Under the pieces are notes generated by a model that saw only the letters and a list, made by a program, of their open reading frames with translations, had not been told where the DNA came from and searched no databases. From a virus: a DNA stretch of 47,767 nt. The stretch covers positions 1 through 47,767 of IMG/VR virus record IMGVR_UViG_3300043313_001243; one strand, given 5' to 3'. Below, one piece after another: positions 2,188 through 11,217 of the stretch; the first letter of the stretch is position 1; the number at the start of each line of letters is the position of its first letter. The translations under genes and the position numbers were made by a program.

Positions 2188-2613
2188 GTGGCACCGACCC
2201 CTGAAGTCAATCGCATGCGGTTCGCGCAGTTCGTCGCGCGGACCCTCGCCGGTGCGCGCGACCGCGGCATGACTGACCGGGACATCCACGCCGCGACCGG
2301 GGTCCCGCCGAGCACCTTCCATCGCTGGCAGAAGGGGCAGGTCGCCACCGCGCCCGACCTCGACAAGGTCAAACGCTTCTGCGAAGGGCTCGGCGTCAGC
2401 GTCACGGCCGCCATGACCGCGCTCGGCCTGGCGCCCGGCCGCGACACCACCGAACCGGAGCCGCCGCTCCCGCCGGAGATCCGCACCATCCTGCGCCGGC
2501 TCGCCGACCCCAACGTCCCGGAGTCCGACAAGCTCGTCATCCGGGAGATGCTCAGGATGCTCGCGCAGCAGGCCCGGCGCACCGAGCCGCCGCCACGGGA
2601 GGGGACAGCCTGA
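2188..2613 (+). CDS. Lysogeny repressor candidate with Xre-type HTH (141 aa)
   Basis: GTG 2188 is chosen because TACCGT lies six bases upstream and because the region before it is not protein-like; ATG 2215 is possible. Residues about 10-75 hold a lambda-repressor-type HTH (GMTDRDIHAATGVPPSTFHR then WQKG), recognition helix around PPSTFHRW. The C-terminal part is a Pro linker plus a helix (VPESDKLVIREMLRMLAQQA) that could dimerise. The TGA overlaps the integrase ATG (TGATG), coupling repressor and integrase expression. It is divergent from the early operon across the 1924-1966 operators. Together with int this forms the immunity/integration switch. Confidence 0.75.
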   Translation: MAPTPEVNRMRFAQFVARTLAGARDRGMTDRDIHAATGVPPSTFHRWQKGQVATAPDLDKVKRFCEGLGVSVTAAMTALGLAPGRDTTEPEPPLPPEIRTILRRLADPNVPESDKLVIREMLRMLAQQARRTEPPPREGTA

Positions 2614-3851
2614 TGGCGCGCAAGCGGCAGCCGGTCATCAGCAAGGGCAGCGACGGGCAGTTCCACGCCTGGGTGACCGTCGGCACCAAGACGAACGGCC
2701 GCCCCGACCAGCGTCACGTCAAGCGGGCCACGGAGGCCGAGGTCGAGGAGCGCGTAGACGAGCTGCTCGACCAGGTGCGGGCGGGTGCGGTCGTCAAGGC
2801 GGGCCGCGGGATGACCGTCGAGCAGTGGCTGACGGTCTACCTGGAGACGGTCGCGCCGCGCCGCTGCGACCCGACCACGATCTACGACTACCGGTCCAAG
2901 ATGCGCAACTGGGTGTATCCGGTCGTCGGCGGCGTCCGGGTGGATCGCCTGCGGCCCGACCAGCTCGACGAGGTGTACCTGCGGATGGCGCGCGCGGGCA
3001 AGGCTGACAGCTCGACGTTGAAGGTGCACCGCATCCTCACCCGCGCCCTGGAGATCGCGTTCCGGCGGGGTCTGGTGCCGCGCAACGTCGCGAAGCTCAT
3101 CGACTCGCCCACGGTGAAGCGGGTCGAGATCCTGCCGCTGAGCGAGGCCGAGGCCGTCGCCGTGCTCGACAAGGCGATCGCGTCGCGTCGGCGCAACACG
3201 GCCCGCTGGTCGGTGGGGCTGGCGCTGGGCCTGCGTCAGGGTGAGGCGCTCGGCCTGCGCTGGCCGTACGTCGACCTGGAGCGCGGCGAAATCCGGGTGT
3301 GGTGGCAGCTGCACCGGCGAGCGTTCGAGCACGGCTGCGGCGGCACGTGCGGGCGCCGTCGCGGCGGGAACTGCCCGGCGAAGGTGCTGCCGCTGCGCTC
3401 CGGCGAGCAGGTCGCGACGGGCGGGCTGATCCTCAAAGAGCCGAAGGGTAAGAGCAAGCGGACGATCCCGATCCCGGTCGAGCTCGTCGAGGCGCTGAGG
3501 GTGCACCGGGAGGTGCAGGGGTTCGAGCGGCAGTACGCCGAGTCGGCCTACCTGAAGCACGGGTTCGTGTTCGCTCACCCCGACGGCCGGCCGCTGGACC
3601 CGGGTGACGACTTCGACGACTGGAAGGGTCTGCTCGCCGCGGCGGGTGTGCGTGACGCGCGGGTGCACGACGGGCGGCACACAGCGGCGACGCTTCTGCT
3701 GGCGCAGGGCGTGCGGCTGGAAGTGGTGCAGGAGATCCTCGGCCACTCCGACATCCGGGTGACGCGGGGCTACTCGCACGTGGCGTCGGCGATGGCCCGG
3801 GCGGCGACCGACGGCATGGGCGCGGCGCTGCTGCGCAAGCGGCTACCGTGA
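2613..3851 (+). CDS. int: Tyrosine recombinase, phage integrase
   Basis: 412 aa, ATG coupled to the repressor stop. Order of domains: basic N-terminal arm-binding region (1-65), core-binding SAM-like domain (about 67-165), catalytic domain (about 175-400). Catalytic residues visible: Arg208 (GLRQGEALGL), His352 and Arg355 (HDGRH), His378 (LGHSD) and nucleophile Tyr387 (TRGYSHV); Lys276 or nearby is the likely beta-hairpin lysine. A Cys-rich insert at about 240-256 (HGCGGTCGRRRGGNC) is common in actinobacterial integrases. It would recombine attP at 4600-4650 with a tRNA-Thr(CGT) gene; the arm repeats at 4505-4526 and 4720-4741 are the expected N-domain sites. Confidence 0.95.
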   Translation: MARKRQPVISKGSDGQFHAWVTVGTKTNGRPDQRHVKRATEAEVEERVDELLDQVRAGAVVKAGRGMTVEQWLTVYLETVAPRRCDPTTIYDYRSKMRNWVYPVVGGVRVDRLRPDQLDEVYLRMARAGKADSSTLKVHRILTRALEIAFRRGLVPRNVAKLIDSPTVKRVEILPLSEAEAVAVLDKAIASRRRNTARWSVGLALGLRQGEALGLRWPYVDLERGEIRVWWQLHRRAFEHGCGGTCGRRRGGNCPAKVLPLRSGEQVATGGLILKEPKGKSKRTIPIPVELVEALRVHREVQGFERQYAESAYLKHGFVFAHPDGRPLDPGDDFDDWKGLLAAAGVRDARVHDGRHTAATLLLAQGVRLEVVQEILGHSDIRVTRGYSHVASAMARAATDGMGAALLRKRLP

Positions 3852-6954: not shown

Positions 6955-7188
6955 TCATTCGCCAGCGTCGTCCTTGCGTTGAGGGAGCTTGGCATCGGGC
7001 TTCCTGAGGTACCAGCGCATGAATTCGCGGATGACACCTGACCGGCTGTCCTCGCCGCCGGAGGTCGCCTCGCCGAACTCGTCCCACAGGTCGGGTTCCA
7101 CCCGGATGGTTCGGCGGTCGGTGCCCTTCGACGTCACAAGGGACAGGGTGTCATGACCAACAAGGGGATCGTGCGTTGTAGGTGTCAT
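6955..7188 (-). CDS. Ribbon-helix-helix (Arc/MetJ-type) repressor of the transfer module
   Basis: 77 aa from ATG 7188; GTG 7137 would give a shorter 60-aa form starting just before the conserved part. The RHH fold is visible: beta strand TDRRTIRVEPDLWDEFGEA (about 23-41), helix 2 after a Gly-rich turn (SRSGVIREFMRWYLRKP, about 48-65). Such dimers bind palindromes through the paired beta ribbon. Two perfect GGTGTCATGACACC palindromes overlap this gene's start and that of the divergent membrane gene, and a third near-copy lies inside the coding region, so autorepression and control of the transfer-like operon are strongly indicated. Confidence 0.85.
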   Translation of the reverse strand: MTPTTHDPLVGHDTLSLVTSKGTDRRTIRVEPDLWDEFGEATSGGEDSRSGVIREFMRWYLRKPDAKLPQRKDDAGE

Positions 7189-7220
7189 GACACCATGCTA
7201 GCTTGGGTGTCATGACACCC
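7146..7220. promoter_or_regulatory. RHH operators with overlapping divergent leaderless promoters
   Basis: Perfect palindromes at 7181-7194 (GGTGTCATGACACC) and 7205-7220 (GGGTGTCATGACACCC), plus GGGTGTCATGACC at 7146-7158. The ATG of the minus gene (7188) and of the plus gene (7212) are the central ATG of the two perfect palindromes. The -10 elements TAGCAT (minus strand, 7200-7195) and TAGCTT (plus strand, 7199-7204) share bases and end 6 and 7 nt before the two ATGs. Neither gene has a Shine-Dalgarno sequence. Binding to both palindromes would block both promoters. Confidence 0.75.
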
Positions 7221-7496
7221 GCTAGTGCAAGCAAGCGGCGTCGCGTCGCGCTGTCATTCATCCGTCGTCACCGCCTCTCCCTAGCGGTCTCCACCGTCCT
7301 CGCCGGCCTCGCGCTGAACGTGCTGGTGCAGGACGGGGTGAAGCCGTTCCTGATCGTCGTGGCCGCCGGGGTCGGCTACGTGCTGGTGCTCGGCTCGGTC
7401 GGCTGGCTGACCGGCGCGCAGGTCGTGAGGCATTCCCGGCGTGAGGCTGCGGCGATCCAGGCGGGCAAGCACTCTGCGAAGGAGCTGACCCAGTGA
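7212..7496 (+). CDS. Small two-TM membrane protein, first gene of transfer-like operon
   Basis: 94 aa from ATG 7212 inside the operator; TTG 7203 and GTG 7209 are less likely. Basic N-terminus (SKRRRVALSFIRRHR), hydrophobic segments at about 22-38 and 45-68 (FLIVVAAGVGYVLVLGSVGWLTG), basic C-terminus. Its TGA overlaps the GTG of the DUF2637 gene in GTGA. Size and position resemble the small Spd membrane proteins that act with TraB in Streptomyces plasmids, but I cannot show homology. Confidence 0.65.
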   Translation: MTPASASKRRRVALSFIRRHRLSLAVSTVLAGLALNVLVQDGVKPFLIVVAAGVGYVLVLGSVGWLTGAQVVRHSRREAAAIQAGKHSAKELTQ

Positions 7497-8290
7497 CCGA
7501 CCTGCCGAAGCTGCGCCGGATCCGGTGGGCGGCGCGTGGCGTGCTCGTGCTGGGCCTGCTCGCGTCGACCGTCGGCAACGTGCTGCACGCGCAGCCGAAG
7601 TTCGTCAGCCAGGCGATCAGCGCGTGGCCGGTCCTCGCCCTGTATCTGACCATCGAACTGATCGCCCGCGTGCCGATGCACCGCACCGGCCTCGCGGTCG
7701 GGCGGGTCCTCGCTACGGCGGTCATCGCCGGGATCGCGGCGTGGGTCAGCTACTGGCACATGGCGGCGGTCGCGTCGGAGTACGGGGAGACGGCGCCGAG
7801 CCAGTACCTGCTGCCGTTCTCTGTCGACGGGCTGATCGTCATCGCGTCGATCTGTCTTGTTGAGCTGGGCGGCCGGATCGCGGCCGCCGAAACCGAAGGG
7901 GTCACCGATGGGCAAGAGACTGGAGAACCTCGGCCGGAAGGCGAACGCGGCGATCACCGCGATGGAGGCGAAGGAAGTAGCCGCCTACGCGAAGGTGACG
8001 CGGCGGGACGCGGACCGGCGGGAGGCGGAGATCCTGCGCCGGTCGGCGACGGTGCTGCGCCGGAAGTAACGCCCGCCGAGCGGGTCAAGTTGACCCGGCC
8101 GCGGAAGCGCCCGCCGACAGTCGCGGGGAAGGTCGCCCGCGCGCACAAGCAGAACCCGGACGCGTCGCACGCCGAGCTCGCGAGGCGGCTCGACTTGAGC
8201 CCCGCCACGGTGAAGCGGCACCGGCCGAAACCAGAGCAGATCAACGGCAACGTGCCGGCACTCGTCGGCACCAGCGAGGAGGAGAACTGA
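7493..8290 (+). CDS. DUF2637 membrane protein with C-terminal HTH, Spd-like
   Basis: 265 aa, GTG 7493 in a GTGA overlap. N-terminal domain (about 1-130) has four hydrophobic segments (ARGVLVLGLLASTVGNVL, WPVLALYLTIELIAR, VLATAVIAGIAAWVSY, VDGLIVIASICLVELGGR), the pattern of DUF2637 proteins of actinomycete plasmids and integrative conjugative elements. A low-complexity linker (about 131-195) follows, then a C-terminal HTH-like region (HAELARRLDLSPATVKRHRP, about 228-247). In plasmids such proteins accompany TraB in intramycelial spread (family knowledge). The linker codons have unusually low GC at third positions because a second gene runs through them in another frame. Confidence 0.8.
   Translation: MTDLPKLRRIRWAARGVLVLGLLASTVGNVLHAQPKFVSQAISAWPVLALYLTIELIARVPMHRTGLAVGRVLATAVIAGIAAWVSYWHMAAVASEYGETAPSQYLLPFSVDGLIVIASICLVELGGRIAAAETEGVTDGQETGEPRPEGERGDHRDGGEGSSRLREGDAAGRGPAGGGDPAPVGDGAAPEVTPAERVKLTRPRKRPPTVAGKVARAHKQNPDASHAELARRLDLSPATVKRHRPKPEQINGNVPALVGTSEEEN
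7908..8069 (+). CDS. Nested out-of-frame gene: 53-aa charged helical protein
   Basis: ATG 7908 with GAAGGGG ending about 8 nt upstream, TAA 8067, wholly inside the DUF2637 gene in another frame. The protein (MGKRLENLGRKANAAITAME, AKEVAAYAKVTRRDADRREA, EILRRSATVLRRK) is a continuous amphipathic basic helix. In this stretch the nested frame has about 90 percent G or C at third codon positions, while the DUF2637 frame has about half, the reverse of the rest of that gene. This says selection on codon use follows the nested frame. The DUF2637 frame encodes only a Gly/Glu/Arg linker here. Confidence 0.6.
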   Translation: MGKRLENLGRKANAAITAMEAKEVAAYAKVTRRDADRREAEILRRSATVLRRK

Positions 8291-9156: not shown

Positions 9157-11217
9157 ATGGCAGAGATCCAGGCGGGGCCGCCCGAACCCGACGACGCCGG
9201 CCCGCGCCCGGACGACGCCGAGTCGTACGTGCAGGAGCCGACCGTGCACGTCAAGGTGACGTCGCAGCCGGAACCGCCGACGGTGTACGCGACCGTCACG
9301 CAGCTCGCCACGTCCGAGCGGCGGCCGATCATCCCGGCGTGGATGCGGACCTCCGACGCCCGCCGGGTGTTCCTCGCGCAGATGTGGGGCCTGTTCTGGT
9401 ACTCGGTCATGCTGCAAGCCTGGTCAACCCCGGGGTATCTCGCGAAAGCCGCCTACTACGCGCCGTGGGGGTTGCTGAAGTTCACCGGCCGGCAGCTGCG
9501 CTGGATGTGGCATCCGGAACTCACGCAGATGATGCAGCACTCGGCGACCGCGAACGACGTCACCGAGGGCATGAGGGCGGCCGACAAGGTCTCAGCCGCG
9601 CGTAAGGCCCGCGCGTACCTACTGCTCGCCGAGCTGGTCGCCGCGGTCGTCGGGGGGCTGCTGCTCTGGTACATGGCGCCGTGGTGGGTGTTCTGGCTGG
9701 CGGTGGCGGTCGCTGTGCCGGTGTTCGCCCGGATCGGCCGGCCGGAGGAGAAGCCGATCATCCAGCACGTGACGGTCGGAAAGCGGTTCACCCGCCTCAC
9801 GCAGGAGCAGGTCCGTAACGCGCTGGTGGCGCTACGGCTGACCGGGCTCACGAAGCCGGGCGACATCTCGTTTCCGCCGCCGGGTGTACGCGGCGATGGG
9901 CCGGGGTGGCTGGCTCGGTTCGACCTGCCGCCGGGGCTCGTTGCCTCCGACGTGCTCGCCAAGCGCGACCGCCTGTCCGGTGCGCTGCGCCTGCCGCTCG
10001 ATCAGGTGTGGCCGGAGGTCGGGCCCGAGCACCTCGCGCAGGTCGACCTGTGGGTCGGGTTCAAGCCGGCGTCAGCGATGGGCGAACCGAAATGGGACCT
10101 GGCCAAGCCGACCGCGGCGACCAGCATCTTTGAGCCGCACGCGTTCGCCACCGACGCCCGCGGCCGGCCGATCGACATCATCCTGTTCCAGCGCAACATC
10201 CTCATGGGCGGGCAGCCGGGCGCGGGGAAGTCGTTCGGTGCCCGCGCCATCATGACGATCGCCGGGCTGGATCCGACGTGTGAGATGAAGGTCGCCGAGT
10301 TCAAGGGCGTCGGCGACTTCCTCGACCTGGAGCCGCTGTGCACCGACTACGCGTGCGGGGTCGACGACGAGGCATTCGACATCGGCGAAGCCATCATCGA
10401 CTGGGCGCTGGCCGAGTGTGAGCGGCGCGGCGCCCGGATCAAGAAGCTGCGGCAGACCGGGGTATGCCCGGACGGGATGCTCACCCCGGAAATCGTGCGC
10501 AAGGTCCGCGGCCTGCACCCGGTGGTGATCCTGATCGACGAGCTGCACGAGCTGCTACTGAACCGCAAGGGCGTCGCCGAGAAGCTGGAACGGGTGCTGC
10601 GCCGCGGCCGCGCCATGGGCATCATCTTCATTCTGGCCACGCAGATCCCGGACGCGAACACCATCCCGACCGGCATCACGAAGATGGTCTCGATCCGGAT
10701 CTGCATGTCGGTCGCGGACTGGCAGTCGAATGACCAGATCCTTGGCACCGGCGCCTACAAGCGCGGCCACACCGCCACCATGTTCCGGCCCGGCTACGAC
10801 CAGGGGTGGGGCGTCATGCAGGGCCTGCGCCGCGACGGCGAAACCGGCCGCACCTACTTCCCGGACCCGGAAGCCCGGGCGGCGATCGTCGAGCGGATGC
10901 GGGTGCTGCGCGGCGGCAAGGTTGTCGGCGACCAGGGCGAGAAGCTGAAGGCGCGGGACATGTTGGCCGACGCCCGGTCGTGCCTGCGCAACCACGAGGC
11001 CGGCGTGCCGTGGGGCGTCCTCGCCGATCGGCTCGCCGAGTTGGACCCGGAGACGTACGCGGGCATCACCGGGGACATGGTCCGGACGGCGCTCGAGCGG
11101 TACGACATCGTCACCGACGACGTGAAGGTGAAGGTCGACGGGAAGTGGACCAACCTTAAGGGGATGCGCCGCAAGGCCCTCGAGGACGCGATCGCCAAGC
11201 GTGCGATCGAGGGCTGA
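9157..11217 (+). CDS. FtsK/SpoIIIE-type DNA translocase, TraB/TraSA-like
   Basis: 686 aa, ATG 9157 with AAGGAG 9 nt upstream. Layout: acidic Pro-rich N-terminus (1-50), hydrophobic pair (about 150-190, LLLAELVAAVVGGLLLWYMA and WWVFWLAVAVAVPVFA), linker domain (200-340), RecA-like motor with Walker A GQPGAGKS (352-359) and Walker B VVILIDE (456-462), then ILATQ and a C-terminal winged-helix-like domain (about 610-686). This is the plan of the hexameric double-stranded-DNA pumps of Streptomyces-type conjugation (TraB) and of FtsK. In TraB the C-terminal wing recognises 8-bp repeats in clt (family knowledge); a cluster of 9-bp repeats follows this gene. In a phage it could move phage DNA between mycelial compartments, or help resolve recombination near attP. 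Confidence 0.9.
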   Translation: MAEIQAGPPEPDDAGPRPDDAESYVQEPTVHVKVTSQPEPPTVYATVTQLATSERRPIIPAWMRTSDARRVFLAQMWGLFWYSVMLQAWSTPGYLAKAAYYAPWGLLKFTGRQLRWMWHPELTQMMQHSATANDVTEGMRAADKVSAARKARAYLLLAELVAAVVGGLLLWYMAPWWVFWLAVAVAVPVFARIGRPEEKPIIQHVTVGKRFTRLTQEQVRNALVALRLTGLTKPGDISFPPPGVRGDGPGWLARFDLPPGLVASDVLAKRDRLSGALRLPLDQVWPEVGPEHLAQVDLWVGFKPASAMGEPKWDLAKPTAATSIFEPHAFATDARGRPIDIILFQRNILMGGQPGAGKSFGARAIMTIAGLDPTCEMKVAEFKGVGDFLDLEPLCTDYACGVDDEAFDIGEAIIDWALAECERRGARIKKLRQTGVCPDGMLTPEIVRKVRGLHPVVILIDELHELLLNRKGVAEKLERVLRRGRAMGIIFILATQIPDANTIPTGITKMVSIRICMSVADWQSNDQILGTGAYKRGHTATMFRPGYDQGWGVMQGLRRDGETGRTYFPDPEARAAIVERMRVLRGGKVVGDQGEKLKARDMLADARSCLRNHEAGVPWGVLADRLAELDPETYAGITGDMVRTALERYDIVTDDVKVKVDGKWTNLKGMRRKALEDAIAKRAIEG

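Follow-up and report, generated by a model that had tools for sequence, protein, structure and literature searches.

Paired palindromes centred on the ATGs of two divergent and probably leaderless genes in an actinomycete virus are predicted operators of an RHH repressor

In the viral DNA analysed here two identical palindromes lie between two divergent genes, and the ATG of each gene forms the centre of one of them. The best explanation for this arrangement is an autoregulating RHH repressor acting on two divergent leaderless promoters. Judging from the sequence we give this reading a probability of roughly 75%, with binding, repression, RNA start and leaderless translation all being predictions. 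The window, i.e. the whole stretch that was analysed, is a 47,767-base IMG/VR virus record with a GC content of 70.1%. Its terminase shares 60.7% identity with the terminase of Streptomyces phage Kromp, the remaining matches are mostly to actinophages, and an integrase gene is located at 2613-3851. The window is a bacterial virus infecting soil actinomycetes.

The operator pair sits between a minus-strand gene for a 77-aa RHH protein (6955-7188, predicted leaderless start at 7188) and a plus-strand gene for a 94-aa membrane protein (7212-7496, predicted leaderless start at 7212). The latter heads a gene run that continues with a DUF2637 protein (7493-8290) and an FtsK-like ATPase (9157-11217); used as a query, the 94-aa protein gave no confirmed relative in the viral contigs. 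Operator 1 (7182-7193) and operator 2 (7207-7218) are exact matches to the perfect palindrome GTGTCATGACAC. They are centred on the ATG of the RHH gene (7188-7186, minus strand) and on the ATG of the plus-strand gene (7212-7214), respectively, and both genes open with ATGACACC. The initial annotation had described each ATG as the middle of a perfect palindrome, which these coordinates bear out; the module is smaller than the 40 bp given there, as we measured 37 bp between the outer edges. The two centres are 25 bp apart (24-27 bp in relatives). A third, imperfect copy with two mismatches is found at 7148-7159, within the RHH reading frame, where it is read in frame as His-Asp-Thr, and its centre lies 34 bp from the centre of operator 1. 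The GTGTCATGACAC pair was the sole case in the window of identical perfect 12-bp palindromes less than 60 bp apart, and none of 200 first-order Markov copies of the window contained any such pair.

According to the accessible portions of two studies, actinobacteria use TANNNT -10 elements and 21-26% of their mRNAs are leaderless (PMC3898074, PMC4895711). Our -10 assignment is based on this consensus. The plus-strand element TAGCTT (7199-7204) and the minus-strand element TAGCAT (7195-7200) stop 7 and 6 nt, respectively, ahead of the ATG on their own strand and share the bases 7199-7200, so that the overlap and spacing given in the initial annotation were recovered exactly. Across the 857 ATGs of the window four have a TAnnnT ending 6 or 7 nt upstream, and two of these are the operator ATGs. 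A weak possible -35, TTGTAG (7176-7181, plus strand), can be read from the sequence 17 nt before the plus -10, and operator 1 takes up most of the spacer between them. A generic sigma-70 scan (TTGACA/TATAAT) reported no promoter at the locus and did not pick up TTGTAG. No AGGAGG-like Shine-Dalgarno precedes either ATG, as had been claimed; the nearest match is the GGT/GGTG of the operator arm itself. Both ATGs thus combine a -10 six to seven nt ahead with the lack of a Shine-Dalgarno, which we took as the mark of a leaderless start. The GGTG of the operator arm lies 2 nt ahead of the ATG and could allow weak pairing with the 16S rRNA if the transcript started further upstream. A second likely leaderless start was noticed at 1934 (minus strand), where TACGTT stands 6 nt before the ATG of a 76-aa reading frame.

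Exact-pattern scans recovered paired palindromes in 36 other stretches, mostly adjoining an RHH gene, an association that in CATG-pattern loci is partly by construction because the seed profiles were built mostly from them; protein-first loci and GTGTACGTACAC-pattern loci were chosen otherwise. The pairs were found in 10 genome contigs (Streptomyces, an Aeromicrobium MAG and a Geodermatophilaceae bacterium) and 26 viral contigs, and some loci were present in both sets. The spacer of the first pair measured 12-15 bp in all 36 cases, with 5-25 or 5-30 bp permitted. With looser spacing, 50 of the 90 successive pairs less than 70 bp apart had a centre-to-centre distance of 24-27 bp, a count that includes redundant loci. 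Five genomes were scanned whole and held one such pair apiece, which points to a local operator and not to a global regulon. Within the phylum, two of the 396 genomes searched showed the pair pattern, and the same two alone had RHH matches of ~1e-20 or better (next-best match among the 396: 7.8e-8). Searches by tblastn with the window RHH protein against named phages, and with a 57-aa Streptomyces RHH protein against named phages and plasmids, returned no match.

The promoter geometry is also shared. A TAnnnT 6 or 7 nt before at least one operator ATG was present in 32 of 33 non-redundant RHH-associated loci and in both directions in 10 of them; L022 is without an exact TAnnnT. When the spacers were shuffled (5000 times), a mean of 1.56 loci had the element in at least one direction (maximum 7) and 0.09 in both directions (maximum 2). 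The 33 loci were drawn from 44 non-redundant pairs. We dropped two extra pairs of an array at L040 and nine pairs with no RHH relative nearby (L036, L044, L046, L052, L053, L058, L059, L061 and L064; the RHH gene is ~1.4 kb off at L052 and 5.8 kb off at L053, and L036 reaches the contig end), while L040 was retained although its RHH gene is 1.3 kb distant. Three of the nine dropped pairs have a matching TAnnnT, and with them the count becomes 35 of 42. The loci with TAnnnT both ways are referred to as class A (the window, L003, L004, L017, L019, L023, L024, L031, L032 and L035), with L023 and L035 closely related to each other. In all 10 class-A loci the third operator copy lies at the 34-bp distance seen in the window. 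Larger arrangements also occur: at L040 four copies of TGTCATGACA (3529-3610), repeating every 24 bp exactly, precede a DNA methylase gene, and genome G978 (L145/L154) carries four RHH relatives, of which two are arranged in tandem and have a GTGTCATGACAC pair apiece.

Repressors of the RHH/MetJ-Arc type (Arc, Mnt, omega, CopG, VapB) are strand-helix-helix proteins that bind short palindromic or repeated operators and autoregulate. By sequence profile the window protein belongs to this superfamily: it matches the Arc-like repressor phrog_6506 (PHROG, 8.7e-5), and the family profile matched the PDB sequences of AvtR (8.3e-5), VapB26 (1.7e-4) and omega (4.7e-3) as well as MazE6. The window protein differs from the known repressors in that it matched no Pfam or NCBIfam model and in that most operators of its family have a variable core within a GTG....CAC frame. 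An AlphaFold monomer model was poor (pLDDT 69.5), with helices at 32-42 and 49-60 and no strand, and a PDB structure search with this low-confidence model gave Mnt as the best match (E 2.9).

Protein-first searches covered 1,579 actinobacterial genome entries (396, 295, 298, 196 and 394; some genomes repeat) and found relatives with other upstream palindromes in the same layout, namely GTGTACGTACAC, GTGTAGCTACAC, GTGTGGCCACAC, GTGGTTAACCAC and GTGCATATGCAC. In most family operators the frame is constant and the core varies, tracking the strand of the protein. We compared the core with three residues of the RHH strand across 49 members (proteins <90% identical, with a repeated palindrome and a gap of 19-27 bp; members without a repeated palindrome, e.g. 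L117, L121, L122, L126, L127 and L146-L153, were omitted). The partial correlation was 0.71 with overall protein similarity removed, and 0 of 5000 permutations reached this value, the maximum being 0.30. CATG cores go mostly with RQT, RRT, QRT or a close variant, ACGT with HRS, and AGCT with ARQ or PRQ; the covarying positions presumably correspond to the DNA-contacting residues of Arc. From 30 viral contigs chosen solely for paired GTGTACGTACAC, 29 had an RHH relative no more than 83 bp away whose strand resembles HRSVR or ARPVR, in a check that still used the same profile. It is very probable that the RHH protein of the window has the GTGTCATGACAC palindromes as its cognate operators, and we expect it to bind them. 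RHH relatives with the cores ACGT, AGCT, GGCC and TTAA in the same paired layout (L114-L125, L158-L169 and L170-L199) form a natural specificity series.

In the mechanism that we propose, a dimeric RHH repressor encoded at 6955-7188 would bind both GTGTCATGACAC palindromes and, more weakly, the third copy at 7148-7159. As each palindrome would overlap both the RNA start of one gene and the stretch between -10 and -35 of the opposite gene, binding would shut both divergent promoters and thereby repress the repressor's own promoter and the DUF2637/FtsK-like gene run. Once the repressor falls, RNA polymerase would initiate at the palindrome centre, at the A of the ATG, a start that is suggested by the back-to-back -10s between the operators at leaderless spacing. 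Ribosomes would initiate on the 5'-terminal AUG without a Shine-Dalgarno, and in CATG-type members the operator would provide the start codon together with the opening residues Met-Thr.

We lean towards the view that the RHH gene starts mainly at the operator ATG, though not in every relative. In L022, L053 and L070 the operator ATG is the sole ATG, GTG or TTG before the DNA-binding strand of the protein. In the CATG-type loci L041 and L045 the frame of the RHH-side operator ATG hits a stop after 12 codons, so the RHH genes there cannot use it. Codon 18 of the window reading frame (7135-7137, minus strand) is a GTG and a possible alternative start. The codon is GTG in 8 and ATG in 2 of the 10 class-A loci, compared to a GTG share of 37% among the other Val codons of these loci. 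A start-capable codon in 10 of 10 cases is too regular to ignore, and the RHH gene may use it as a further start or in place of the operator ATG. In the class-A loci codon 18 is followed by AC, and as a result an out-of-frame mini-ORF from the ATG of the third operator often ends in a TGA overlapping codon 18. The regular codon 18, together with a length from the operator ATG to His-Asp that is constant in 11 of 11 aligned sequences, would fit a gene with two starts: the leaderless operator ATG would give a long protein and codon 18 a shorter one, and the third operator would lie between the two starts. However, inspection of the class-A sequences by eye showed neither a Shine-Dalgarno nor a -10 preceding codon 18. 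The fixed length may be fully explained by the 34-bp spacing of the operators, and the GTG might belong to another half-site. We regard two starts as a tentative possibility.

Another explanation is that the layout serves repression only: the operator would be centred on +1, the ATG within CATG would be incidental and the genes would start downstream, in the case of the RHH gene at the GTG of codon 18, the regularity of which would agree with this. It holds for most of one clade (mostly Streptomyces, RHH proteins beginning with MPNVEKTP), which shares the operator/-10 layout, yet the operator ATG is not the usual gene start there. Reading frames of at least 48 codons opened at the operator ATG in 3 of 11 cases and in the control frame likewise in 3 of 11, so the genes of this clade are probably leadered. 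Relatives with the cores ACGT, AGCT and GGCC also keep the paired operators with no ATG in them. Outside the MPNVEKTP clade, in contrast, the presence of a reading frame follows the presence of a promoter: where a -10 is present, 29 of 31 directions have a frame of at least 48 codons opening at the operator ATG, compared to 4 of 13 where it is absent (control frame: 9 of 31 and 4 of 13). By blastp the 18 non-RHH frames that open at operator ATGs sort into ~13 groups unrelated to one another, and the proteins behind these ATGs include an HNH endonuclease, a DNA methylase, DUF6011 proteins and small membrane or secreted-looking proteins; the divergent frame of L032 resembles a wrong frame (Arg/His-rich). 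The repression-only layout is further opposed by the lack of any other RHH start in the three loci named above and by the position of the TAnnnT end, which is tight in the CATG loci (6-7 nt from the ATG) compared to the ACGT set (4 and 6-9 nt from the operator centre). For the plus-strand gene of the window the operator ATG is the only ATG or GTG before the conserved part, and a TTG at 7203 falls within the -10. A homologue in L024 (67% over 73 residues) also begins at its operator ATG, with no other ATG or GTG ahead of the homologous part. The start of the plus-strand gene at the operator ATG is well supported, and a layout for repression only appears unlikely.

The initial annotation had gone further and equated the sites of repressor binding, transcription start and translation start. 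The covariation that predicts the operators, the conserved -10/ATG geometry and the ATG of the plus-strand gene speak for this. It is weakened at the RHH start by codon 18 and across the family by the MPNVEKTP clade and the ATG-free cores, so that an operator doubling as start codon fits many CATG-type members and not the whole family. Of 40 family members, nearly all of which had come from the protein searches, 18 have an in-frame start preceding the RHH strand with a TAnnnT that ends 6-7 nt ahead of it, and often another operator copy comes first. It therefore looks as if the repressor is commonly leaderless even where the operators are ATG-free.

The RHH protein could alternatively be the antitoxin of an autoregulating type II toxin-antitoxin pair, given the profile matches to VapB26 and MazE6 and the mostly leaderless toxin-antitoxin genes of M. 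tuberculosis described in the accessible part of PMC3898074. We found no toxin-like gene beside the RHH gene in the list of open reading frames, Pfam searches of the neighbouring minus-strand frames and PADLOC were empty, and the divergent partners are of many kinds; we consider this reading very improbable. That the palindromes are a product of chance, which the Markov copies rule out, or a non-regulatory repeat such as replication iterons is hardly credible in view of the conserved spacing, promoter geometry and covariation, even though some contigs (L049 and L064) contain TGTCATGACA arrays with other spacings (42-45 bp steps) and no RHH relative found, which are probably unrelated.

Returning to the autoregulating repressor, the material as a whole slightly favours a broader picture, in which a mobile-element RHH family would travel with a ~36-39 bp cassette comprising the operator pair, two divergent promoters, the RNA starts and the start codons. 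Unrelated genes would be captured behind it and inherit the Met-Thr of the operator, and strand and core would have diverged in step to give a natural recognition series (CATG, ACGT, AGCT, GGCC, TTAA and others). If true, this is an extreme packing in which a single palindrome determines where the repressor binds and where RNA and protein begin, in both directions. The module would offer a compact portable regulated leaderless promoter, and the RHH/operator pairs of differing specificity a ready set for studying how the RHH strand reads DNA. It also calls for caution, as the start codons and N-termini of such genes may be set by DNA-binding constraints.

Several known systems share parts of this arrangement. 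Like the window, the cI/cro regions of phages PY54 and lambda have a phage repressor in a divergent pair. Their repressors are HTH proteins, and the partner in the window is a small membrane protein and not the divergent second repressor of a cI/cro-type switch. In PY54, as far as the accessible text describes it, the cI and cro mRNAs are both leaderless and start at the AUG, as proposed here; unlike in the window, the 16-bp Cro operator OR3 stands apart, upstream of cI, the cro promoter lies up to 40 bp from OR3 and the start codons are not operator centres (PMC4488713). CvkR and cas12k of type V-K CRISPR transposons also are a mobile-element regulator and a divergent target that are both leaderless, with a palindromic motif (there with an ACATnATGT core), and Arc-like RHH regulators are found in some of these transposons (PMC9938897). 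However, CvkR is of the MerR type, 82 nt separate the start codons, the results point away from autoregulation, and the accessible portion of that report does not describe a coincidence of operator and start codon. In the E. coli 5'-uAUG mRNAs a 5' AUG is followed by a downstream leadered start, as transcripts of the MPNVEKTP clade would have, whereas no operator at the 5' AUG is described in the accessible part (PMC4965119). In actinobacterial leaderless genes the centre of the TANNNT lies 7-12 bp upstream of the RNA start, which coincides with the start codon, according to the same portions of PMC3898074 and PMC4895711; in the window the start codon is, in addition, the centre of the operator dyad, in both directions. 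Literature searches with the operator strings GTGTCATGACAC/TGTCATGACA, GTGTACGTACAC, GTGTAGCTACAC, TGTAGCTACA and GTGTGGCCACAC gave no operator paper recognisable by title or abstract among the matches listed, and we found no report, in mainly open-access literature, of operators whose centres serve as the leaderless start codons of two divergent genes. Thus leaderless mobile-element repressors (lambda cI and Tn1721 tetR in the accessible parts of PMC3848588 and PMC9938897), divergent leaderless pairs and the TANNNT element are already known, and what appears to be new is that both start codons are operator centres.
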